Below, piece after piece: positions 46,545-59,104 of a stretch of DNA of 64,000 bases. Numbering within the stretch: the first letter of the stretch is position 1; every line of letters begins with the position of its first letter. The notes under the pieces are model-generated. The model did not search any database and was not told the origin of the DNA. It saw only the letters and a list, made by a program, of their open reading frames with translations. A program made the position numbers and the translations under genes. Origin of the DNA: Bacteroidales bacterium (GTDB lineage: Bacteria; Bacteroidota; Bacteroidia; Bacteroidales; UBA10428); assembly GCA_016935435.1 (NCBI GenBank), contig JAFGQZ010000078.1:1-64000 (forward strand), in the 5' to 3' direction.

Positions 46545-46574
46545 ATAAAAAGCCGGAAATTTCCGGTTTTTTAT
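46545..46574. terminator. Bidirectional terminator
   Basis: CCGGAAATTTCCGG (46553-46566) is a perfect palindrome flanked by A- and T-tracts on both sides. It ends the trxA operon on the plus strand and the men operon on the minus strand; the menE stop codon abuts it. Confidence 0.9.
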
Positions 46575-47647
46575 TTGTTTAAAAGCATATCGAGCAGTCT
46601 TTTACGGTCGATTTTAAAAGAATTGTTACGCGGAAGTTCATTAACAGTGACAATTTTTCCGGGTATATGATAGGGCGGCAATGCTTCTTTTAATAACCCT
46701 TGAATTTCTTTTTCATCCAGGTTACTTTCGGATTCGGCCACCATTACAACTTTCTGTCCGAGTTTTTCATCCGGAACACCAATTATAGCACATTCAATAT
46801 CCAGCACTTTGGCAATGGAAGCTTCCAGTTCCTCTGGCTTAATTTTTATGCCACCCGAATTGATAAGGTTGTCGTAACGGCCTTTCCACATAAAATGCTT
46901 ATTGTCGATACATTCAACCAAATCGTTTGTAACAATGGTTTCGGTAAGGTAAGGTGCATGAATCACCAGGCAACCACGTTCGTCGGTTTCAACGGAAATA
47001 CCTGGCAGTGTTTCGAAATATTTATCGGGTGTAGGTCCACTAATCTTTCGCAATGCAATATGCGAGCATGTTTCAGCCATTCCATAACTTTCGAAAGTAT
47101 TGTTCGACACATCGCGAAACATTGCCAGCAGTTCGTTGCGCAGCTCTGCGCCACCAATAATAAGGTTTTCGATATTTTTAAAAAATTCGTAATTGCTAAA
47201 AGAATTATAAACCTGTAAAGGCACCATTGAACAGAAATTAATCATGCCATGTTTGGTAAGTACCGGCATTGACGAAGGCTCTTCCCAAATAAGGTTCAGG
47301 CCCGACACAAAGGCACGCACAACCATCATTTTACCGGCAATATATTCTACCGGTAAACAAAGCAATGCCTTATCGCCAAATTTCAGCCCTAACTTTTTGG
47401 CAGTAAGCCTGGCCGATTCAACCATCGAAAGCTTTGAAATCCTGAATGTTTTTGGGGTTCCGGTAGTCCCTGAGCTTTGCTGAACAATGTAATCTGTTTC
47501 ATCAATAAAATCGAGCATAAACTGGTAAATGCCCCTTTCCCATGCAGGTAATTCAAGTTCCAGTTGACTTTTTGCGTGGTCCGGCAAATCTTCAAGCGAA
47601 AGAATACGATCGTTTAATATTATACCGGGAAAATCGAAATTCATCAT
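46571..47647 (-). CDS. menE: O-succinylbenzoate--CoA ligase
   Basis: 358-residue adenylate-forming enzyme that activates o-succinylbenzoate with CoA in menaquinone synthesis. The adenylation motif QQSSGTTGTPKTFRIS, then FESYGMAETCSHIALR, the KGRYDNLINSGGIKIKPEELEA hinge segment and C-terminal catalytic lysine region PRNNSFKIDRKRL are conserved. It is shorter than typical MenE (about 450) because the N-terminal part is compact, as in other Bacteroidetes. Last gene of the men operon, 3 bases after menC. Confidence 0.92.
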   Translation of the reverse strand: MMNFDFPGIILNDRILSLEDLPDHAKSQLELELPAWERGIYQFMLDFIDETDYIVQQSSGTTGTPKTFRISKLSMVESARLTAKKLGLKFGDKALLCLPVEYIAGKMMVVRAFVSGLNLIWEEPSSMPVLTKHGMINFCSMVPLQVYNSFSNYEFFKNIENLIIGGAELRNELLAMFRDVSNNTFESYGMAETCSHIALRKISGPTPDKYFETLPGISVETDERGCLVIHAPYLTETIVTNDLVECIDNKHFMWKGRYDNLINSGGIKIKPEELEASIAKVLDIECAIIGVPDEKLGQKVVMVAESESNLDEKEIQGLLKEALPPYHIPGKIVTVNELPRNNSFKIDRKRLLDMLLNK

Positions 47648-47650
47648 GCG

Positions 47651-48703
47651 CTAATATATAAATTCATAATTCCATTTCTTATGTACATTGTAATATAATT
47701 CTTCACCGTGCACCTCTAAAGGCGACCCTATATTTGAACTATAAAGGCTGCCGGTACCAAGCCCCTGGTACATATTGTTTTCTAAAGTATATGTCCATTG
47801 AGAAATGGCGTTAAGCCCTATATTCGATTCGAGGGCTGAGGTTACCCACCAGCCGGCATTAAATTCGGCGGCAATTTTAATCCATTCGCCTGTTTCTTGA
47901 AAACCACCAAGCAGGCCAGGCTTAAGCACAAGGTAATGCGGCCTTATTGTTTCTATCAGCTTTCTTTTGTTCTCAAAAGGGCAAATTCCAAGAAGTTCTT
48001 CGTCGAGTGCAATTGGCACGGGGGAATTCTTGCACAATAGTGCCATCTCGTCAATCTGCGAGGGCATAATGGGTTGTTCAACAGAATGAACCTGCAATTC
48101 GGCAAGCATTTCAAGAACATCAAAAACAGAAAGAGTATTATACGCCCCGTTTGCATCGACCCTTATTTCAAGTTCATTGCTTGTAAAACGCCGCCGGATA
48201 TTTCTAATAATAGACAGTTCGTCTTTAAACCCAATGGCCCCAATTTTAAGTTTAATGCACCTAAAGCCTTTATTTATTTTATCTTCAACCTGTTCCAACA
48301 TATTTTCGGGCGATGCCATCCATATCAGGCCATTAACCGGAATGCCCTTTTTGCCATTGGTAAACTCAGAAGGGAACAGTACTTTTGTTCCGTTTGACTT
48401 TAAATCAAGTATTGCCGTTTCCAAAGCAAAATTCAGCCCGGGAAACCCATAAACAGGTTTCTCAAAATCATACTCCCCTTTGTTAATCAAATCGCAGGTT
48501 TCGGTTAGTTTTTCATTAATTTTTTCGCCAACATCGACACTAAGGCCGGGAATAAAAGAGTACTCACCAATACCGGTAACCTGGGATAGTTTGTCGTCGT
48601 ACAAAAACAGGTACCAAACAGGCTTATCTTTCATAATGCCCCTCGAAGTAGCAGCAGGCAAGCAAAATTGAAGGGTTCGTTTTTGGAAATATGCTTTTAT
48701 CAT
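47651..48703 (-). CDS. menC: o-Succinylbenzoate synthase
   Basis: 350-residue enolase-superfamily enzyme that dehydrates SHCHC to o-succinylbenzoate. Catalytic Lys in RCIKLKIGA, metal ligands in EIRVDANGAYN, HSVEQPIMPSQ and IALDEELLGI, and second Lys in HYLVLKPGLLGG are visible. I chose ATG 48703 because it overlaps the menA stop as ATGA, giving translational coupling; the longer reading adds 11 residues inside menA. Order menA-menC-menE. Confidence 0.93.
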   Translation of the reverse strand: MIKAYFQKRTLQFCLPAATSRGIMKDKPVWYLFLYDDKLSQVTGIGEYSFIPGLSVDVGEKINEKLTETCDLINKGEYDFEKPVYGFPGLNFALETAILDLKSNGTKVLFPSEFTNGKKGIPVNGLIWMASPENMLEQVEDKINKGFRCIKLKIGAIGFKDELSIIRNIRRRFTSNELEIRVDANGAYNTLSVFDVLEMLAELQVHSVEQPIMPSQIDEMALLCKNSPVPIALDEELLGICPFENKRKLIETIRPHYLVLKPGLLGGFQETGEWIKIAAEFNAGWWVTSALESNIGLNAISQWTYTLENNMYQGLGTGSLYSSNIGSPLEVHGEELYYNVHKKWNYEFIY

Positions 48704-49602
48704 AATACCAGGCCTAGTCCGAACGAAACCGACCACGCAAAAGTTGTTAAGGCCAGTTTTTTAAGTTCGTTGTTAAGTTCAAAAGGTACAGTATTTTTCA
48801 TAACTGTTTTTACATCGCGCAATAAAAGCGGTATGGTGCCCATAAACAGCAATTGAACAGGCGATGTGAAAAATATAAGGGTATAAACAACACTTAACCC
48901 TATGGCGAAAATTACAATAAACAGATGGTAAATTTTTGCTGCTTTCACGCCAATACGCACCACTAAAGTGTGTTTACCAATACGCGCATCGTTTTCGGCA
49001 TCGCGCAGGTTGTTGAGGTTTAAAACACCCATGCTGAAAAAGCCAATTGACGAAGCCGGCAGAATTATCCATGGATTAAGAAAGCCGCTATGTAGGTAAA
49101 ATGTGCCGCATACGCCCACCAGACCAAAATATAAATAAACAAACACATCGCCAAGGCCGACATAGCCATAAGGTTTGCGGCCTACTGTATATTTTATGGC
49201 AGCATAAATTGCCGAAAACCCCAAAGCAAAAAACAATACTATTTTCCAAACCGGCCACTTATTAAGCCCAACAAGTATTAGAATGCTTCCCGAAACCAGC
49301 GAGAGTGCCACGAAAGCAATAATCATACGGCGCATCTGCGGCAAGCTAACCTTACCCGACTGGGTAACACGCTCGGGGCCAATACGGTTGCAATCGGCAC
49401 CTTTTACAGCATCGCCATAATCGTTGGCCAGGTTCGACAGAATTTGTAAAAACAAAGTAGTGAGAAGCGCAAACACAAAAACAATTAGACGAAAGCTGCC
49501 GTATGAAAAAGCCAGAAAGCTGCCAACAAATGTACTTGACAGTGCCAGCGGAAGTGTCCGTAGCCGAAAAGCCTGCAACCATATTTTTACATTATTGTTC
49601 AT
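48700..49602 (-). CDS. menA: 1,4-Dihydroxy-2-naphthoate polyprenyltransferase
   Basis: 300-residue UbiA-family membrane prenyltransferase that joins DHNA to a polyprenyl chain. The aspartate-rich motif LANDYGDAVKGADCNRIGPER (first D-rich motif with N-D-x-x-D) and the second motif NLNNLRDAENDARIGKHTL are present, with about eight to nine transmembrane helices. It follows menB by 2 bases and overlaps menC by 4. Confidence 0.95.
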   Translation of the reverse strand: MNNNVKIWLQAFRLRTLPLALSSTFVGSFLAFSYGSFRLIVFVFALLTTLFLQILSNLANDYGDAVKGADCNRIGPERVTQSGKVSLPQMRRMIIAFVALSLVSGSILILVGLNKWPVWKIVLFFALGFSAIYAAIKYTVGRKPYGYVGLGDVFVYLYFGLVGVCGTFYLHSGFLNPWIILPASSIGFFSMGVLNLNNLRDAENDARIGKHTLVVRIGVKAAKIYHLFIVIFAIGLSVVYTLIFFTSPVQLLFMGTIPLLLRDVKTVMKNTVPFELNNELKKLALTTFAWSVSFGLGLVL

Positions 49603-49604
49603 GT

Positions 49605-50420
49605 TCAGGGCAACTTCGGATATTTTTTAAAGTCGGGTTTACGCTTTTCAAGGAAAGCTTTCTTCCCTTCCTGGGCTTCTTCTGTCATGTAATAAAGCAT
49701 GGTAGCATTGCCTGCAAACTCCTGCAACCCGGCCTGGCCGTCGAGCTCAGCATTCAGCCCGGCCTTAATCATGCGAAGTGCCAAAGGGCTGTGCTGCATT
49801 ATTTTTTTGCACCATTCAACAGTAACATCCTCAAGCATTGCCTGAGGCACTACTTTGTTCACAAGCCCCATTTCCAAGGCTTCCTGTGCTGAGTATTGTT
49901 CACAAAGGAACCAAATTTCTCGTGCTTTTTTCTGGCCTACAATACGCGCCAGGTACGATGAGCCAAAACCGGCATCGAAACTGCCTACTTTTGGCCCGGT
50001 TTGCCCAAAAATTGCATTATCGGAAGCAATGGTCAAATCGCAAACTACATGAAGCACATGGCCCCCGCCAATTGCATAACCATTTACCATTGCAATTACG
50101 GGTTTTGGCAACGAACGTATCAGCTTCTGCATGTCGAGTATGTTCAGGCGTGGCACACCGTCTTTGCCAATATAACCGGCAAAACTTTTTACATTCTGAT
50201 CGCCACCGCTGCAAAATGCCTTATCGCCAGCACCAGTAAGAACAACAACATTTATTTCGGGATTTTCGCGGCACAGTACCATTGCATCGCACATTTCTTT
50301 TGTAGTGTCTGGGGTAAATGCATTATGGTAACGTGGGCGGTTAATGGTAATTTTTGCAATGCCCTCAAAAAAATCGAATTTTATCTGCTCGTATTCTTTT
50401 ATGGTTTTCCAGTCTCTCAT
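49605..50420 (-). CDS. menB: 1,4-Dihydroxy-2-naphthoyl-CoA synthase
   Basis: 271-residue crotonase-fold enzyme that cyclises o-succinylbenzoyl-CoA. Oxyanion segments [72 protein letters not shown] and [15 protein letters not shown] are near-identical to the MenB family pattern. C-terminal [22 protein letters not shown] is also typical. It sits 8 bases downstream of menD. Confidence 0.97.
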
Positions 50421-50428
50421 TACTTTAA

Positions 50429-52093
50429 TTACTGTTTGCTGATATTTTCAATAAAGGTACGAAATATTTCAGGGTTTTGGCCAGAAGGTGTCTTAATCTC
50501 AAGCAAAGCAGCCGTATTGGTTGCCATAAGTTGATGAAAAGAACCTTCAAAAGTTTCAGCATTATTGCAGGCCAGGTATTTAACACCAAATGCAGCAGAA
50601 AGTATGGACAAATTTACCGGATGGTGTGCCACCTGAAACCGCTCAAAAACATCGGAAGGTTCGGGGCCTTCAAGCAAGCTGAAAATTCCACCTCCCGAAT
50701 TGTTTATTACAACAACTTTCAGGTTTTTGGGCAGGTTTTTGTTCCATAAGCCATTTGAATCGTAAACAAAACTTAAATCGCCAAGTATGGCAATTACATT
50801 TTCTGCCGATGTGCGGGCAATGCCGCAGGCTGTGGATAAACAACCATCAATTCCGGAAGTGCCACGGTTCGAAAAAAGGGCCTTGCCACTGAAGCCAAAC
50901 AACTGAAGGTACCTTATAACACTGCTATTACCAGCAAAAACCAGTTCGTTTTTTGAAATAAGGCGCGAAAGCATAAAGAAGGCCCACAAATCGGAAAAAC
51001 CACTTTCGGGCAATAAACTATTAACCCTGTCTGTTGCTTGTTTGTCGAGAGTCAGCCAGTATTCACAGAAACCAGTTGAACTGCCAGTGGGCATATTTTT
51101 TATTATCTCCCTGAAAAAATCTTTTGGGCTAAGGGGTATAACTTTCGATAATTTCTTAAACGTATCGATATGCGCCCCTGAAGGGTTTATGTGCCAGAAT
51201 GGAACCCCTTCTATTTGCCGCAAATATGCCTTTAAACGCTTTGATACAACCTGTCCGCCAAAATAAATTACCAGCGAGGGTAAATTATCCTTAACCTTAT
51301 CGCCTGCCATTGCAAGCAACAATTCGGGGTTGTTTGCAATATGCCTGCCACCAATGTTTGCAAGTGCCTCGGCAATTACCACGGCCATTCCGGAACCTGC
51401 AAGCTGGTTGAGAATGCCCGAAAGCTCGATATCGGGCAGCATTTGCCCGCAAACAACCAAAATACGTTGGGAGCTGTACCATTTCTCATAAACTTCGTTG
51501 CCCAGCGAGAAAGTTCCGGTTTCAGACAGCTCAATGTTTCTAAGGTATTTTGAGACAGTAAGCTGCCCATAGAGGGGTTCACGCAAAGGCACGTTTATGT
51601 GCACCGGGCCGGGGCAGCCAGAAACAGAAATATTGTATGCTTCATTAACCATCCGGTTGGTGTACCATAAATCGTCGTTGCAGGTACAATCTAAAGGGAG
51701 CTGGCAACTATATTTGATATAATTTGCAAAAATGTTTTTTTGCAGTATTGTCTGGTTGTCGTTTTGCCCAACCCATTCCGGTGGACGATCGGCAGTAACC
51801 ACAATGAGCGGGATGCCCTGGTAATATGCTTCTGCAATTGCAGGTGCATAATTGAGCACTGCTGAGCCAGAGGTTGAAAGCAATATGGATGGCAAACCCG
51901 TTTTTATTGCCATACCCAACCCAAAAAAGGCAGCGCTGCGCTCATCGACAATACTTAGGCAACTTTCGCCAAAGTTGTCGAAAAACAGTTTAATAAGCGG
52001 TGCATTTCTTGAACCGGGCGAGATAATAACATTTTGAGCCCCTTTCACTTTTAGAAGGCCCGGTAGTATAGATATATGTTCTTTAGGATGCAT
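50429..52093 (-). CDS. menD: SEPHCHC synthase (MenD)
   Basis: 554-residue thiamine-diphosphate enzyme that condenses isochorismate and 2-oxoglutarate. N-terminal PYR domain [58 protein letters not shown]-terminal PP domain [18 protein letters not shown] and [13 protein letters not shown] (ThDP-binding GD..N motif). Its ATG shares one base with the menF stop (TAATG), so the two are translationally coupled. Not fused to MenH. Confidence 0.96.
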
Positions 52094-53229
52094 TAATGTT
52101 TCGATATTGTTTGGATAACCGACAACAAAGTTTCAGCTTTCATTTCTGTTTCCAGCCATTCGTCCTCCGGTACCGAATCGGCTGTAATTCCTCCGCCCAC
52201 AAACAGGGCAAGTGTTTCGGTAAGTACCTTCATGCACCTGAGGTTAACAAAAAGCGACAATCTGTCGTTAAGCCCAACCGGGCCTAAAAAACCGGCATAA
52301 TATTCACGATCGTGTTTTTCAAGGCCCTGTAACAACTCCAGGCTTTCGTGCAGGGGCATTCCGCATACAGCAGGTGTTGGGTGTAGCCTGTTCAGGAACA
52401 ACCCCAGTTTTTCAATAATTTCTTCGGAGCGAAAAGTAAAATCGGTGCGCAGGTGAAGCAGGTTCCCGGCTTTTTTTGTATATGGCCCCTGCAAATCAAC
52501 ATCTTTTACATTGAAATGTGCCAAGACACCTGCAATATACCTGGTTACATATTCCTGTTCAAGTCTTTCTTTGCTATTCCAGGCGCCGATGTTTGAATTT
52601 TTCTCATTGTAAGGCCGGGTACCAGCCAAAGATACAGTTTGCATTGTGCCATTTTTAGCTTTTAAAAAGGGCTCGGGTGTTGCCCCAATCCATAAATGTG
52701 GCCCTGCATTAAAAATATATACAAATGCATTGGGGTTCGACTTGCACAGCAGCGAAAATATTTCTGGCAATACCGGAATGTAACTGCCATTAATTGTTTT
52801 CACCCTGCTAAGCACAACCTTTTCGAATTTCCCGTTTCCAATACCCTCAAGGATGGTTTCTATTTGATTTATATAACCATTGTGCGAAACCTCATCGGGT
52901 ATATGCGATTCGTTCGATTGAACTGGTTCGGGTTTTAAAATGTTTAATTGCTTAAGTTGGAGTTCTGAGAGGCAACCGCACGCATAAATGTCGGGGTTAA
53001 TAATAAACGCCGGCGAATATATGTTTATAGAAAAAGGAACAACCAGGAAACCTTTGATGTCGTGGGGCAGATCGTAAACAGAAACCATTTGGTGGGTAGG
53101 GGCGAACTGAACAACTATTTCGGGGTTTTCGCCATTAGGCAGCCTATAGGCAGCAAACCTGATATTTTTCTTCAGGCATAAGCCAATAGCCCCGGCCACC
53201 GAAATATGTTTTGTTGCACCGTTCTGCAC
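52093..53229 (-). CDS. menF: Isochorismate synthase
   Basis: 378-residue chorismate-utilising enzyme converting chorismate to isochorismate, the first committed step to menaquinone. Motifs: KFEKVVLSRVKTI, WIGATPEPFLKA, TVSLAGTRP, SKERLEQEYVTRYI, HPTPAVCGMPL, RLSLFVNLRCMKVL and ALFVGGGITADSVPEDEWLETEMKA, all typical of the MenF/EntC group. A pathway by siderophore (EntC) is unlikely given the men neighbours. Starts 11 bases after menI. Confidence 0.95.
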   Translation of the reverse strand: MQNGATKHISVAGAIGLCLKKNIRFAAYRLPNGENPEIVVQFAPTHQMVSVYDLPHDIKGFLVVPFSINIYSPAFIINPDIYACGCLSELQLKQLNILKPEPVQSNESHIPDEVSHNGYINQIETILEGIGNGKFEKVVLSRVKTINGSYIPVLPEIFSLLCKSNPNAFVYIFNAGPHLWIGATPEPFLKAKNGTMQTVSLAGTRPYNEKNSNIGAWNSKERLEQEYVTRYIAGVLAHFNVKDVDLQGPYTKKAGNLLHLRTDFTFRSEEIIEKLGLFLNRLHPTPAVCGMPLHESLELLQGLEKHDREYYAGFLGPVGLNDRLSLFVNLRCMKVLTETLALFVGGGITADSVPEDEWLETEMKAETLLSVIQTISKH

Positions 53230-53240
53230 AGAAATGCCTC

Positions 53241-53645
53241 CTAAGCTTTTTCTTTTATAATATTAGTAACACGTGCCACAGAAATAAGTTTTCCCTGTTC
53301 GTCGGTAATTTTTACGTCCCATACATGGGTTGACTGGCCCTGGTGCACTATTTCGGCACGGGCATAAACTACACCCTTTCGTATGGCTGCCAAATGGTTG
53401 CCGGTTACCTGAAGCCCCAATACATCGAAGTTTTCGTTGTCAATTAACAACATCGATCCAGCCCCGGCAACTGTTTCTGCCAGTGCCAGCGAAGCCCCGC
53501 CATGCAATATGGAATTGGGTTGATGTTTTTTTTCATTTACCGGCATACTTGCCAGCACATAATCTTTTCCGTAATCGAGAAACTCAATTTCCAGATGGCT
53601 TATAAAAGTGTTTTTACAAATTTCGTTTATTTGTCGGATAGTCAT
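53241..53645 (-). CDS. menI: Hotdog thioesterase, probable DHNA-CoA thioesterase
   Basis: 134-residue hotdog-fold protein of the PaaI/MenI group. HQPNSILHGGASLALAETVAGAGSM is the HGG..E active-site motif, and AIRKGVVYARAEIVHQGQSTHVWDVKI continues the sheet. Placement between ubiE and menF makes hydrolysis of 1,4-dihydroxy-2-naphthoyl-CoA the likely role. Confidence 0.88.
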   Translation of the reverse strand: MTIRQINEICKNTFISHLEIEFLDYGKDYVLASMPVNEKKHQPNSILHGGASLALAETVAGAGSMLLIDNENFDVLGLQVTGNHLAAIRKGVVYARAEIVHQGQSTHVWDVKITDEQGKLISVARVTNIIKEKA

Positions 53646-53714
53646 TTTTAACCCGTTTTATAGTTTTCAAAGATATAAAATACATTGCACCCCTATCCCC
53701 AAAATAATTATAAT

Positions 53715-54434
53715 CTATAGTTTTTGAAACGATAAAAGGTTACAGGCCCCAAAAAAGAAACTCCCCGACTTTGTACATTTAAATCCTTTTTCAGCAAGCA
53801 TTCTTTCAATTTTATCGGTGCTGTAAAATTTCGACGATGAATGGGCCAGATACCAATATGCCCTGACATTTCCCGAAATTAAACCTCCTAGTGGAATTAA
53901 CACCATATACAGGTAAAGCCTATAAAAAAATTGTATTGCCCGGTTTTGGGGCACCCCGCTTTCCAGAATAAACAAAAAGCCCCCCTGCTTTATTACCCTT
54001 GCTAATTCGTTGAGGTGTTTTTGTGCATCGGGGTTGTTAAAAGTAAGGTTGCGAAAACCAAACCCGATAGTTACAGCATCGAAAGCACCTGTTTCGAAAG
54101 GCATGGCAGCAGCATGGCCATGTTCAAAAATTACATTATTGTAACCCTTTTTTTGTAATTTCAAACGGGCTTTTTCGAGCATTTTAAGGTTAAAATCGAA
54201 ACCGGTAATTTTTTCGCTGCCCTTAAGGTTCTGGCACAGGCTAATAATTAAATCGCCGGTGCCGCAGCATAAATCCAGCACATTTTCGGGCTGCACCTTA
54301 AAACATTCCTGGGCCGCATAGTTGCGCCATTTCGTATCGAGCCCGAAAGTAAATAGCCTGTTAATTAAATCGTACCGCTTATAAATACGGGTATAAAATG
54401 TGTTGAGTTCAAATTCTTTGTTGTGCATTGCCAA
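53715..54434 (-). CDS. ubiE: Demethylmenaquinone methyltransferase
   Basis: 239-residue SAM-dependent methyltransferase of the UbiE/MenG type, catalysing the last step of menaquinone synthesis. Start MAMHNKEFELNTFYTRIYKRYDLINRLFTFGLDTKWRN, SAM motif VLDLCCGTGDLI, FDAVTIGFGFRNLTF and the C-terminal LIPLGGLISGNVRAYWYLAHSS are diagnostic. 69 bases upstream of menI; 38 bases downstream of btuD with no terminator visible between. Confidence 0.95.
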   Translation of the reverse strand: MAMHNKEFELNTFYTRIYKRYDLINRLFTFGLDTKWRNYAAQECFKVQPENVLDLCCGTGDLIISLCQNLKGSEKITGFDFNLKMLEKARLKLQKKGYNNVIFEHGHAAAMPFETGAFDAVTIGFGFRNLTFNNPDAQKHLNELARVIKQGGFLFILESGVPQNRAIQFFYRLYLYMVLIPLGGLISGNVRAYWYLAHSSSKFYSTDKIERMLAEKGFKCTKSGSFFFGACNLLSFQKL

Positions 54435-54472
54435 AAACCAGTATTAATAAAAAAATCATTGTAAATAAATGG

Positions 54473-55516
54473 TTAGTTGTTGTATTTCTGATGGTTAATA
54501 ATTGAAACAAAGTAGTTTTGCAAATCAATAAGCCTTAAAAAAGTGTTTGGGTTTTCGCTATTAACAATTATTTCTTTTCGAAGTTCATCAACTTCGATAA
54601 GTATTGCGCCATCCTGTGGTTGCCGGGCAATATTAATTCCCAGCCGCTTAATAAGACGAATTACACAAGCTGTAATTATTCCGTCGCCAATAATGTTCAC
54701 CCAAAGGCCCTTATCGGGGTTTAGTTCGAATGAGGCTGAAAAAGGGTGAAAGCTAATATGATTGTTGCCAAAAATGTGGTTTAACGAATTGTTTAAAATT
54801 AGTTCCTCCGGAATAGACTGCTCCATATTTCCGTTATGGTCGATCAACCACACTTTATCGGATACCTGCATTCCCAGCCCCAGCTCGTGGGTCGATAAAA
54901 GAATGCCCTTGCCCATTTTACGGGAAAGCTTTTTCAGCAAAAGCAGCAGCTCCATGCGGTTTGAAAGATCGAGGTGTGCAGTTGGTTCGTCGAGAATAAT
55001 TAAATCTACATCCTGGGCAAGCACTTTGGCAATCATGGCGCGCTGCCTTTCCCCATCGCTGACTTCCGACAACCTGTTAGCAGCCTTCTTGGCCAAACCT
55101 GTTTTTTTAAGCACATCGCCGATAATTTCCATATCGGCACTTGTAATATTACCAATCCAATTGGTAAAATGGTACCTTCCCATAGCCACCAGATCAAAAA
55201 TAGTCATGTTCTTCTCGTAAACCGGATCGGTAAGCACTACTCCCAGAATATCCGATTTTTGGGAAACTGTCAGGCTGGCGGCATCCAGCCCGCCAATGGT
55301 AACTGTACCCTTCAGCAGTGGAAGAACCCCGCAAAGGCTCCTGATAAGTGTCGATTTGCCGCAACCATTGGGGCCTATAAGAGTAATAAGTTCGCCTTGT
55401 TTAATTTCAAGGTTTAAACCGGAAAGCAATACATTTGTGCCTTTTTTACGTGTCCTATAGCCTACCGACAAATTACTTGTCGATAACAAAATATTTTTAT
55501 CACTGTAGGTTTGCAT
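54473..55516 (-). CDS. btuD: ABC ATPase for cobalamin/siderophore uptake (BtuD/FecE type)
   Basis: 347-residue ATPase of the BtuD/FecE/FhuC group. Walker A GPNGCGKST, signature VSDGERQRAMIAKVLA, Walker B LIILDEPTAHLDLSN and H-loop STHELGLG. The C-terminal roughly 90-residue extension (HISFHPFSASFELNPDKGLW to the end) goes beyond the usual 250-residue ATPase. ATG 55516 lies 2 bases after the permease stop; the longer reading runs into the permease. Assigned to cobalamin because of the riboswitch at the head of the operon. Confidence 0.9.
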   Translation of the reverse strand: MQTYSDKNILLSTSNLSVGYRTRKKGTNVLLSGLNLEIKQGELITLIGPNGCGKSTLIRSLCGVLPLLKGTVTIGGLDAASLTVSQKSDILGVVLTDPVYEKNMTIFDLVAMGRYHFTNWIGNITSADMEIIGDVLKKTGLAKKAANRLSEVSDGERQRAMIAKVLAQDVDLIILDEPTAHLDLSNRMELLLLLKKLSRKMGKGILLSTHELGLGMQVSDKVWLIDHNGNMEQSIPEELILNNSLNHIFGNNHISFHPFSASFELNPDKGLWVNIIGDGIITACVIRLIKRLGINIARQPQDGAILIEVDELRKEIIVNSENPNTFLRLIDLQNYFVSIINHQKYNN

Positions 55517-55518
55517 AC

Positions 55519-56550
55519 TTAAAAAGTAACTTTCATTTTTCGGTTTCGCAAAATAAGCACAACCACCACCGGGGCACCAAAAAGTGCTGTAACAGCGTTT
55601 ATAGGAAGTGTAACAGCCTTTCCGGGCAACTGCGAAATGATATCGCACAACACCATAAGCAGTGCACCTACCAGTATAGAACCAGGCAGAACAACCCTGT
55701 GCAAAACCTTGCCGCTTATTAGCCTTACAATGTGGGGCACAGTCATACCCACAAAAGCTATCGGGCCTGTAAAAGCAGTAATAGTTCCGGCAAGCAGGCT
55801 CGAAATAACTATCATTGCTATGCGCACCTTTTTAACATTAATGCCAGAAACACGGGCATGCATTTCCCCCATAAGCAGGGCATCCATAGGTTTTAACAAA
55901 AACAACGACAAGCCTGTTGCGAAAACAAAAAGAGGTGCCAAAAAGCTGAGTTGCAGCCAATTTGTTGCAGCTAAACTGCCCAGCGACCATACTACATATT
56001 TATGCACGTATTCGGCACTGGCGAAGAATTCGAGGATGCCAACAATTGCCGAGGCAAGGCTCCCTACCATCATGCCTATAAGCAGCAGCGAAACCGAATC
56101 GCCCAGGCGCCACGAAAACGATAAAATTAGAAAGAACACCAGCACAGAGCCAGTTAAAGCAGCCATAACCTGCCCGCCAACTATAAAGGCTGGCGAAATA
56201 CCGATAAATGCCACTGAGGCCATAATATAAATTGCAACTCCGAGCCCGGCCCCGGAACTAATGCCTAATACATAAGGCCCGGCCAAAGGATTGTGAAACA
56301 GGGTCTGGAGCAATAATCCGGCAACCGAAAGGCTGGCTCCTGTTATCAATGCCGTAACAACCCGTGGCATGCGTACATGAAAAATAATAAAATCGGTTGT
56401 AGGGTTGCCACCTTTACCCCAAAGAGCATTAAAAAACTCCCCCAGGGAAATATTGGCACTTCCGAATGCCAAATCGGCAAAAACCCCGACCAGGAGCAGC
56501 AACAGCAAAAAAGCATAAATAATTTTCGGATGTAAACGCATAAAGGTCAT
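55519..56550 (-). CDS. btuC: FecCD/BtuC family ABC permease
   Basis: 343-residue permease with about ten transmembrane helices. Family signatures: TDFIIFHVRMPRVVTALITGASLSVAGLLLQTLFHNPLAGPYVLGISSGAGLG, LSFSWRLGDSVSLLLIGMMVGS and GPIAFVGMTVPHIVRLISG near the C-terminal end. The operon order btuF, btuC, btuD with a 4-base overlap to btuF shows co-translation. Vitamin B12 specificity follows from the upstream riboswitch. Confidence 0.93.
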   Translation of the reverse strand: MTFMRLHPKIIYAFLLLLLLVGVFADLAFGSANISLGEFFNALWGKGGNPTTDFIIFHVRMPRVVTALITGASLSVAGLLLQTLFHNPLAGPYVLGISSGAGLGVAIYIMASVAFIGISPAFIVGGQVMAALTGSVLVFFLILSFSWRLGDSVSLLLIGMMVGSLASAIVGILEFFASAEYVHKYVVWSLGSLAATNWLQLSFLAPLFVFATGLSLFLLKPMDALLMGEMHARVSGINVKKVRIAMIVISSLLAGTITAFTGPIAFVGMTVPHIVRLISGKVLHRVVLPGSILVGALLMVLCDIISQLPGKAVTLPINAVTALFGAPVVVVLILRNRKMKVTF

Positions 56551-57719
56551 TTAAGTTTTTGCCAGTATAGTGTTTGCTCGCTGTCACCAAACAATTCCGG
56601 ATGCAAAATCAGGATAAGGTCGCGCAAAAGCAAATCGGGACGTATTACACCCGACTCGTAATAATCGAGCCCTCCCTCGGGATTTTTTCGCTTATTATAA
56701 TGATAGACATTACCCTCACGGAAAGCTTTAAAATTAATGCTGCGCGGCTCTGTAGCGGCCAGTTCGGCAAGCGAAGATGCATTTGCGTTCAGCCATATAT
56801 CATCGTCTTTTTGTTTTTGCATTGCTCCCTCAAAACTAATTGGCAGGCCTCCGGTTGAGCTGTCGGCCGACCAATAATAATCTCCTCCGGCATCGCCTAT
56901 TAATTTTGCAACAAAACTCTTGCCGCCGGCAGCGTACCATACCCCTTTATAGGTGTTCCCTACAAGTACTTTGGGTTTTGGCCCTTTGGGTGCTTTGTTT
57001 GCCATAGAACAATAATGCAGGTAGTTTTTCTCTATCTCAGAGAATATGGAGTCGGCTAAATCCTTCTTCCCGGTAAGCAGGCCTATAAGCTTTATCCACT
57101 CAGCCCTGCCCAGCGGATGGGGTTCCATAAACTCAATATTATATACTATCGGTATGCCCGATGAAGCAATAATGTCATCGGAAGCATCGGGCGCCTGGTA
57201 AATGTACTTCATTACCAAATCGGGCGACAGTCCGATAATGGCTTCGGTATTTATGCCAAGCCCATTGCCGAGGTTTATTATATCGCCCTGCTTGTATTTC
57301 CTGTAGATTACCGAATCGAAAACCCAGTTAGCTGACGTACAGGCCGAAATAAAATCTTCGCTATGCAGCATGGACAACATACCTATATAGGTCGAAGAAA
57401 GAAAAACACCTTTTTCCAATGGCAGCCTTAAATATGTAATATCGCCTGGAACAACTACTTTACTTGAGCTATCTGCAATAACATAAGTCCTGAGAATTTT
57501 ATAATTGTCCCACGGGTTATAAACCTCTACCCGGAAATAATTTCCCTTATCGGCAATAGAATAGCCCCGTGCATATTTTAGGCCTTCGCCGGGCTGAACG
57601 TTGTTGTTGTTGTTGTTGTTTTGCTGCCGGCCACACGAGAGCAAAACCAACATAAATAATGAACAGTTTTTTACGATTGGCTTAACAACTCGCCCTGGCA
57701 CAAAACTTAATACATCCAT
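56547..57719 (-). CDS. btuF: Periplasmic B12-binding lipoprotein (BtuF-like)
   Basis: 390-residue ABC substrate-binding protein. Signal peptide II with VLLSC lipobox (C about 28 from ATG 57719), then an unusual Asn tract (seven N, encoded by a GTT/AAC triplet repeat near 57600). Binding-protein features: VVVPGDITYLRLPLEKGVFLSS, LSPDLVMKYIYQAPDASDDIIASSGIPIVYN, and LVGNTYKGVWYAAGGKSFVAKLIGDAGGDYYW. ATG 57719 is favoured; the upstream TTG adds two residues. First gene after the cobalamin riboswitch. Confidence 0.88.
   Translation of the reverse strand: MDVLSFVPGRVVKPIVKNCSLFMLVLLSCGRQQNNNNNNNVQPGEGLKYARGYSIADKGNYFRVEVYNPWDNYKILRTYVIADSSSKVVVPGDITYLRLPLEKGVFLSSTYIGMLSMLHSEDFISACTSANWVFDSVIYRKYKQGDIINLGNGLGINTEAIIGLSPDLVMKYIYQAPDASDDIIASSGIPIVYNIEFMEPHPLGRAEWIKLIGLLTGKKDLADSIFSEIEKNYLHYCSMANKAPKGPKPKVLVGNTYKGVWYAAGGKSFVAKLIGDAGGDYYWSADSSTGGLPISFEGAMQKQKDDDIWLNANASSLAELAATEPRSINFKAFREGNVYHYNKRKNPEGGLDYYESGVIRPDLLLRDLILILHPELFGDSEQTLYWQKLK
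57600..57621 (-). repeat. Trinucleotide repeat coding poly-Asn in btuF
   Basis: Uninterrupted (AAC)n on the minus strand, encoding the NNNNNNN stretch just after the lipid anchor of BtuF. As a triplet it can change linker length without shifting frame. Confidence 0.8.
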
Positions 57720-57861
57720 AACCAATATGTTTCTGGTTTGTAACTAAAAACCCCTGCTTTGCACAGGCATTTTAACAATATAATAAGGGGCAATAAGAAT
57801 GAACTGATCAAAAACAACCGATTCCGAAACTTAACTCCCCGAAGTGTCGAATGAATACGAT

Positions 57862-58100
57862 GGCAAGTAAGGCAGGTCTTCTGGCTTGCCCCATCCAACA
57901 GCAGCCTTCCCGCTTTCCCCGGCAGTTATCTGCTACATAACAATATCTTGTTCGGGCGAAAATTATCTGTTATTCAAACAACAGAAATAAGCAGTGGCAT
58001 TTTTCAACTGTTGGTTTACGGGGCCTACAGCTGCGGGGGCAGCCCCGGAATCGCCCATCGAATCAGGCACACCGGGTTCCCTGTTAGGCTAATGCACCTT
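57862..58100 (-). promoter_or_regulatory. Cobalamin riboswitch
   Basis: On the minus strand the 3' B12 box GCCAGAAGACCTGCC (near 57871-57886) is conserved. Upstream are GGGAACCCGGTGTG, GATTCCGGGGCTGCCCC-like core, CGCAGCTGTAGG, CCGTAA and ATGCCACTG, the conserved pieces of cobalamin riboswitches in the right order. It precedes btuF by about 140 bases and should repress B12 uptake genes when cobalamin is bound. Confidence 0.92.
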
Positions 58101-58207
58101 AAAAACCGCCATAAAGGTAACTAAAATAATATTACAAAGGCCATTCGGGCAGACAAGCATTGCTCCAAAATTAGCCCCGTAGTGCAGGAAATTGAACCTG
58201 CGCAATA

Positions 58208-59104
58208 TTATGTCGAACCAATTACCAGTAATATAGCCCCAAGCAATATACCAATAAGCCCGATGGATTTAGAGCGTAAGTTCCCTTCTTTAAATATAAT
58301 TGCCCCAACAGTAAATGAAAACATAACGCTCCCACGCCGGAACACCGATACAATGCCAATAAGGGCCCCTGGTTCGCTCAGGGCATAGAAATATAGAAAA
58401 TCGGCCAGCGAAAGCACTATTCCTATAGCGGGTATTGTCCATCGCCACTGAAAAGCTGGTTGCAATTTTCGCCGTGGGAACCACATGAGCAACAAAAAAG
58501 GAAGCATAACCACTACCATATAAATTGAAAACCATGCCTGAACAGCCATTCTGTTATAACTTGCCAGCAGATATTTATCGAAAAGGCTCGAAGCAGAGCC
58601 AAATATAGTAGCAATAAAAATTGCATATACCCACTTGTTGCGCAAAAAACTAATACCTTCTTTCCTCCCGGCAAGAGCAAACAAATAGGTTGCAATAACC
58701 GACAGAGTTATTCCCAACCATTGAAAAAGATTAAAACGTTCGCCGTAAAGCAAAAAAGCCCCGGCAACAGTCCATACCGGCCCGGTTGAACGTATAGGCA
58801 CCACTATGGTTATGGGTAGCCTGCTTAAGGCCATATATGCAAAATACCAAGATGTGCCCACAATGGCCGATTTAAAAAAGTACAGCAAATGCTCTTTAAC
58901 CGATATTTCGGGCACATAAAAAATACTGCCCTCAATAATGATCGATGATCTGGAAAACAGCAGTAAAGCAGAAAAAATTATTGCCCCGGTAAAAGTTGCA
59001 AAAAATAGAACCGGGACAAATGCGTTGTTTTTTAACGAACTTTTTTTTAATAAATCGTAAATGCCTAGCAGAAAGCTCGATGATATAGCCAATATTACCC
59101 ACAT
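58208..59104 (-). CDS. EamA/DMT family transporter
   Basis: 298-residue inner-membrane protein of the drug/metabolite transporter type with about ten helices in two EamA halves (1-145 and 155-298). It starts MWVILAISSSFLLGIYDLLKKSSLKNN and includes LPITIVVPIRSTGPVWTVAGAFLLYGERFNLFQWLGI, a typical end of EamA unit one, repeated by ALIGIVSVFRRGSVMFSFTVGAIIFKEGNLRSKSIGL in unit two. Substrate unknown. Divergent from the DUF3108 gene with its own -7 box. Confidence 0.85.
   Translation of the reverse strand: MWVILAISSSFLLGIYDLLKKSSLKNNAFVPVLFFATFTGAIIFSALLLFSRSSIIIEGSIFYVPEISVKEHLLYFFKSAIVGTSWYFAYMALSRLPITIVVPIRSTGPVWTVAGAFLLYGERFNLFQWLGITLSVIATYLFALAGRKEGISFLRNKWVYAIFIATIFGSASSLFDKYLLASYNRMAVQAWFSIYMVVVMLPFLLLMWFPRRKLQPAFQWRWTIPAIGIVLSLADFLYFYALSEPGALIGIVSVFRRGSVMFSFTVGAIIFKEGNLRSKSIGLIGILLGAILLVIGST

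Follow-up and report, generated by a model that had tools for sequence, protein, structure and literature searches.

A cobalamin riboswitch and btuFCD importer genes directly precede the menaquinone operon in most genomes of a Bacteroidales genus

In a 64,000-nucleotide stretch of DNA from a Bacteroidales genome (hereafter, the window), an importer operon headed by a B12 riboswitch is joined to a complete menaquinone operon. The genes lie on the minus strand and run in one direction throughout, from the cobalamin riboswitch through btuF-btuC-btuD to menG(ubiE)-menI-menF-D-B-A-C-E, the locus and its upstream neighbor occupying positions 46571 to 59104. The first-pass annotation, made from the sequence alone, had described a B12 riboswitch operon heading into a menaquinone operon, a description borne out by the RF00174 match, the family profiles, and the gene order. 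All parts of the locus come from known families, but no description of an importer operon joined to a men operon was found in the open-access literature searched.

Gene content of the locus

The importer half of the locus encodes a binding protein, a FecCD permease, and an ATPase side by side on the minus strand, as expected of a BtuFCD importer. The btuF product (56547–57725) is annotated as a periplasmic corrinoid-binding lipoprotein (Peripla_BP_2, 79 bits), with a lipobox (LLSC) in its translation; the first listed start of the gene is a TTG at 57725, and an ATG is found at 57719. The start of btuC (55519–56550), encoding the permease (FecCD, 257 bits; 188 bits with the BtuC model NF003001, under its cutoff), overlaps the btuF stop. 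The ATPase gene btuD (54473–55516) was assigned from ABC_tran (98 bits) and alignment. Its product carries a C-terminal extension (54473–54760) of roughly 90 residues past the ABC domain, which has no Pfam match, and BtuD frames of similar length are present in other Bacteroidota. The NCBIfam equivalog cutoffs for BtuC and BtuD were reached by neither window protein, and the riboswitch and the family resemblance point to a corrinoid as the probable substrate. The genome encodes the B12 enzymes methylmalonyl-CoA mutase (MCM) and methionine synthase (MetH).

The menaquinone half is a classical men operon, with menG and menFDBACE all on the minus strand. The demethylmenaquinone methyltransferase gene menG/ubiE (53715–54428, with the open reading frame extending to 54434; TIGR01934, 206 bits with the cutoff at 158) most probably starts at the ATG at 54428, which orthologue alignment favors over the TTG at 54434. 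It is followed by a menI-like gene for a DHNA-CoA thioesterase of the hotdog fold (53241–53645; above the cutoff of TIGR00369, with the best match, NF047425 MenI, below its own), the isochorismate synthase gene menF (52093–53229; TIGR00543, 217 bits, slightly below its cutoff), menD (50429–52093; TIGR00173, 351 bits), menB (49605–50420; NF005637, 484 bits), menA (48700–49602; TIGR00751, 250 bits), menC (47651–48736; assigned from TIGR01928 at 89 bits, below its cutoff, together with the operon position), and menE (46571–47647; AMP-binding and AMP-binding_C). A profile search found the futalosine-pathway family PF02621 to be absent from the genome, and the men genes are thus the only quinone route detected in it. 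Upstream of the riboswitch, the co-directional neighbor on the minus strand is an EamA transporter gene (58208–59104; PF00892).

Conservation and origin of the linkage

We searched 60 genomes, 9 of them from the genus of the window (whose own genome is G000), with MenG and BtuD and then read the loci. The order btuF-btuC-btuD-menG, in the same orientation, is found in 7 of the 9 genus genomes (G000, G001, G002, G003, G004, G005, and G007; the linked genomes), with menI and the remaining men genes downstream of menG wherever the contig extends far enough. In G004, the locus is split over 2 contigs, one holding riboswitch-btuF-btuC and the other btuC-btuD-menG, which the matching btuC halves suggest are to be joined; a reading of G004 as a genome devoid of the switch was rejected, because the second contig half carries the riboswitch. 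The MenG and BtuD proteins of the linked genomes are 46% to 57% and 36% to 57% identical, respectively, to those of the window, a divergence so far advanced that the btuFCD-menG order must have outlived much sequence change; upstream of the riboswitch, by contrast, the linked genomes have different genes. Given its recurrence within the genus, the linkage is more than chance.

The 7 linked BtuCD pairs form a single clade (100/98), apart from the btuFCD genes located elsewhere in the genomes of other genera of the family. In the rpoB tree, the genus is likewise one clade (99), within which the 2 remaining genomes, G006 and G008, are nested. Both are missing the whole riboswitch-btuFCD cassette and have an EamA gene directly before menG; the same EamA gene stands directly before the riboswitch in G000 and G005. 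Most simply, the cassette would have been acquired once, at the base of the genus, and cleanly lost once, in the ancestor shared by G006 and G008. The men tree hinted that the linkage had arisen twice independently, a reading rejected since the linked BtuCD proteins are one clade and the genus is monophyletic by rpoB. The men-operon tree (G000–G022) conflicts with rpoB in that genus g4 has men genes of 2 groups, each nearest a different half of g1, and this conflict may reflect horizontal transfer of the men operon. G006 has a different btuFCD, also associated with a B12 switch, elsewhere in its assembly, which is to be read with caution as the assembly looks mixed: it contains 2 different rpoB genes (L251 and L266; G006:C12 and C34), the C34 copy grouping with G008 and the other falling outside the family, and is therefore probably a mixed bin.

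Among unlinked genomes, menG has a divergently oriented upstream neighbor in the outgroup G010 and in G013, G015, G017, and G021, so that the men operon begins at menG there, with a start of its own. A class-wide BtuD search gave no men linkage in the best 29 matches besides the window, with flanks of 1.5 kb. Men genes were likewise found beside BtuD in none of the 80 relatives covered by a scan of named genomes with flanks of up to 10 kb, a set composed mostly of remote ABC paralogues, from which near relatives of the window were possibly excluded.

The btuD-menG junction

The first-pass annotation had placed 38 bases and no hairpin between btuD and ubiE, which agrees with our measurement from the TTG at 54434; the favored ATG at 54428 makes the gap 44 bases (54429–54472, minus strand). 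In the other linked genomes, the gap is 11 (G003), 16 (G001 and G002), or 24 (G004) bases, and in G005 and G007 the two genes overlap by 8 bases, so that the ATG of menG falls within the last part of btuD. No terminator-like hairpin was found between btuD and menG in the scan of the window or at any of the 7 linked junctions, all of which were scanned separately. In the 300 nt before menG, no match to the Bacteroidota TTTG/TAnnTTTG consensus rose above shuffled sequence; the same scan missed the promoter expected in front of the riboswitch, and its silence before menG is therefore weak evidence. A scan with the Escherichia coli sigma-70 consensus was uninformative (33 matches versus 27 expected). 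A single transcript across btuD-menG is strongly supported by the shared strand, the kept order, the 8-base start/stop overlap in 2 relatives, and the absence of terminators and above-chance promoters.

The riboswitch, its leader, and its variation

The sole Rfam match within the window is a cobalamin riboswitch aptamer (57854–58116, minus strand), which spans the full RF00174 model (1–189) with a score of 94.3 bits, above the gathering score of 31.5 bits, and contains both an intact L5 core, GCUGCCCCCGCAGC, and the B12 box, AGCCAGAAGACCUGCC. As a member of this family, it would bind adenosylcobalamin and repress the downstream gene. Leaders of 6 linked genomes share a CGA-n-AC-n-TCGGGGA-like element in the interval between the aptamer and btuF, represented in the window by CGACACTTCGGGGAGTTAAGTTTCGG (57824–57849, minus strand). 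As judged by sequence reading, the conserved stretch of this element 3′ of the aptamer (...CUUCGGGGAG...) is complementary to the C-rich L5, and the element would fit as a putative P13/L13 of the expression platform, in which L13 may form a kissing loop with L5. In the window, a weak terminator-like hairpin of 5 pairs, CCTGTGCAAAGCAGG followed by GGTTTTTAGT (57753–57767, minus strand), lies approximately 30 nt before the btuF ATG; it is not shared, and no intrinsic terminator was found in the other 5 of the 6 linked leaders scanned. Since the leaders have no conserved intrinsic terminator, we infer control at translation, possibly with Rho-dependent termination or decay; the switch thus probably acts on translation and/or through Rho, for which the genome has one gene.

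The state of the switch at the locus varies among the linked genomes. It is intact in 4 (94.3 bits in G000, 94.6 in both G005 and G007, and 72.3 in G004), divergent in G003 (52.8 bits), coreless in G001 (41.7 bits), and absent from G002. In G003, the B12 box is altered and the stem partly compensated; the switch was first considered as dead, a reading rejected in favor of divergent only, because part of the stem changes are compensated. G001 no longer has the GCUGCCCCCGCAGC core, and the remnant (L068:12528–12747) keeps the 3′ half of the B12 box and the L13 element, with an unrelated hairpin in place of the L5 core. All 10 other cobalamin riboswitches found in G000, G001, G002, G003, G005, and G007 score at least 82 bits. 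The variation fits lineages being freed from B12 control of the transcript and speaks against strong selection for a circuit between B12 and menaquinone, although the genomes are few and related and the variation is a pattern rather than a proof. The coupling looks tolerated or in the process of being relaxed.

Two further cobalamin riboswitches were observed in the genome of the window. One (L087:4498–6968; G000:C20) precedes nrdD-nrdG, encoding the oxygen-sensitive class III ribonucleotide reductase, at a locus where the other strand encodes a TonB-dependent receptor. The third switch of the genome (L086:5795–9193; G000:C104) precedes genes for a BtuB-like receptor and a beta-propeller protein, a pair found behind riboswitches in G001, G003, and G005 as well.

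Proposed mechanism and alternative explanations

The reading that we favor, with moderate confidence, is a one-time insertion that brought about a modest and tolerated coupling. The riboswitch-btuF-btuC-btuD cassette would have been placed once, early in the genus, directly before the men operon and would have become its 5′ part, yielding one transcript, riboswitch-btuFCD-menGIFDBACE. When adenosylcobalamin is plentiful, the aptamer would bind it and the L5-L13 kissing loop would lower the expression of btuF, probably through a block of translation that leaves the RNA untranslated and open to Rho and decay. Transcription would then less often extend to menG, and the men genes would be modestly lower with B12 and higher in its absence. 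Such coupling is more likely a tolerated result of gene order than a designed circuit, because the switch is coreless or gone in some lineages and the cassette has been dropped by 2 members of the genus. That B12 controls the men genes is plausible, as is the spread of the B12 effect along the operon into menG, which draws on published operon-wide RNA changes with cobalamin and on switches acting at the level of transcription. RNA-seq of the Bacteroidales species Xylanibacter ruminicola showed that, of the 7 transcripts most changed with cobalamin, 6 came from genes behind a single cobalamin riboswitch (PMC11575231), and such switches can therefore alter RNA levels over a whole operon. In a survey, 10 of 15 Gram-negative taxa had one or more cobalamin riboswitches active at the level of transcription (PMC12121620). 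Of the earlier proposal that readthrough places the menaquinone genes partly under cobalamin control, readthrough has gained ground through the strand, order, overlap, terminator, and promoter evidence given above; the cobalamin control is an inference, weakened by the 5 of 6 leaders with no intrinsic terminator, the low power of the promoter scan, and a switch that is divergent, coreless, or gone in 3 of the 7 linked genomes.

It is also possible, if less probable, that the genes are co-transcribed but insulated, with a promoter inside btuD, toward its 3′ end, supplying most of the menG-E mRNA, so that B12 shifts btuFCD and hardly affects men. Strong repression of the only menaquinone route detected would be costly, menG must use its own start in the 5 unlinked loci with a divergent upstream gene, and the best motif scores 8 of 10 inside btuD in several loci; however, equally good scores arise in shuffled sequence, and the positions (−46 to −273) are not common between genomes. 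An adaptive coupling, in which a shortage of B12 would serve to increase both menaquinone synthesis and B12 uptake (for example, because the fumarate/succinate electron sink must change when the B12-dependent MCM cannot operate), appears doubtful. MCM is present in the genome, the linkage is retained across the genus at 46% to 57% MenG identity, the 8-nt overlap occurs in 2 genomes with an intact switch, and the B12 switch before nrdDG in the same genome provides a metabolic target beyond uptake; yet a beneficial circuit does not predict a switch that is coreless in G001 and absent from G002 or a cassette missing from G006 and G008. A related and broader proposal is a circuit throughout the genus in which corrinoid uptake and the only detected menaquinone pathway are both set by the riboswitch, tying the supply of respiratory quinone to B12 status, and from which some lineages escaped by losing the switch or cassette; it is unlikely in our estimate. 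That the 2 operons are independent and abut by chance, with an unrecognized transcript end between them, is very improbable: the gap in the window (38 to 44 nt) is the widest of the 7 and A/T rich, but the order is kept in 7 genomes, start and stop overlap in 2, and no junction has a terminator.

Relation to known systems and implications

Riboswitch-headed uptake operons of Bacteroidales, such as the btuB loci of Bacteroides and the 6-gene operon of X. ruminicola KHP1 (PMC11575231), likewise combine an RF00174 aptamer with corrinoid uptake genes. The operons described there contain uptake or corrinoid-synthesis genes, whereas that of the window continues with 8 menaquinone genes after btuD. 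Unlinked relatives (G010, G013, G015, G017, G021, G022, and G029) have a men operon of the same genes in the same order, menG-menI-menFDBACE, but there menG is the first gene of the operon, preceded by other genes and not directly by btuFCD. Like that of the window, the E. coli btuB riboswitch has its cobalamin aptamer in the 5′ leader of a gene for corrinoid uptake; btuB is its only known target, and its host differs from that of the window in using Shine-Dalgarno sequences. It is listed among the known transcriptionally active riboswitches (PMC12121620). The first-pass annotation had called the coupling of the 2 systems unexpected, and rightly so: a B12-switched importer operon joined to a complete menaquinone operon was found neither in the open-access literature searched nor outside the genus in the genome sets searched.

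Should the transcript prove continuous, the only menaquinone (vitamin K2) pathway detected in the genome would come within reach of a vitamin B12 sensor, which would link 2 cofactor systems, B12 supply and respiratory quinone production. The locus would offer a natural case of what becomes of an operon placed downstream of another pathway's riboswitch, whether the control is tolerated, exploited, or escaped by decay of the switch, and since the switch ranges from intact through divergent and coreless to absent in a single genus, this question can be tested directly.
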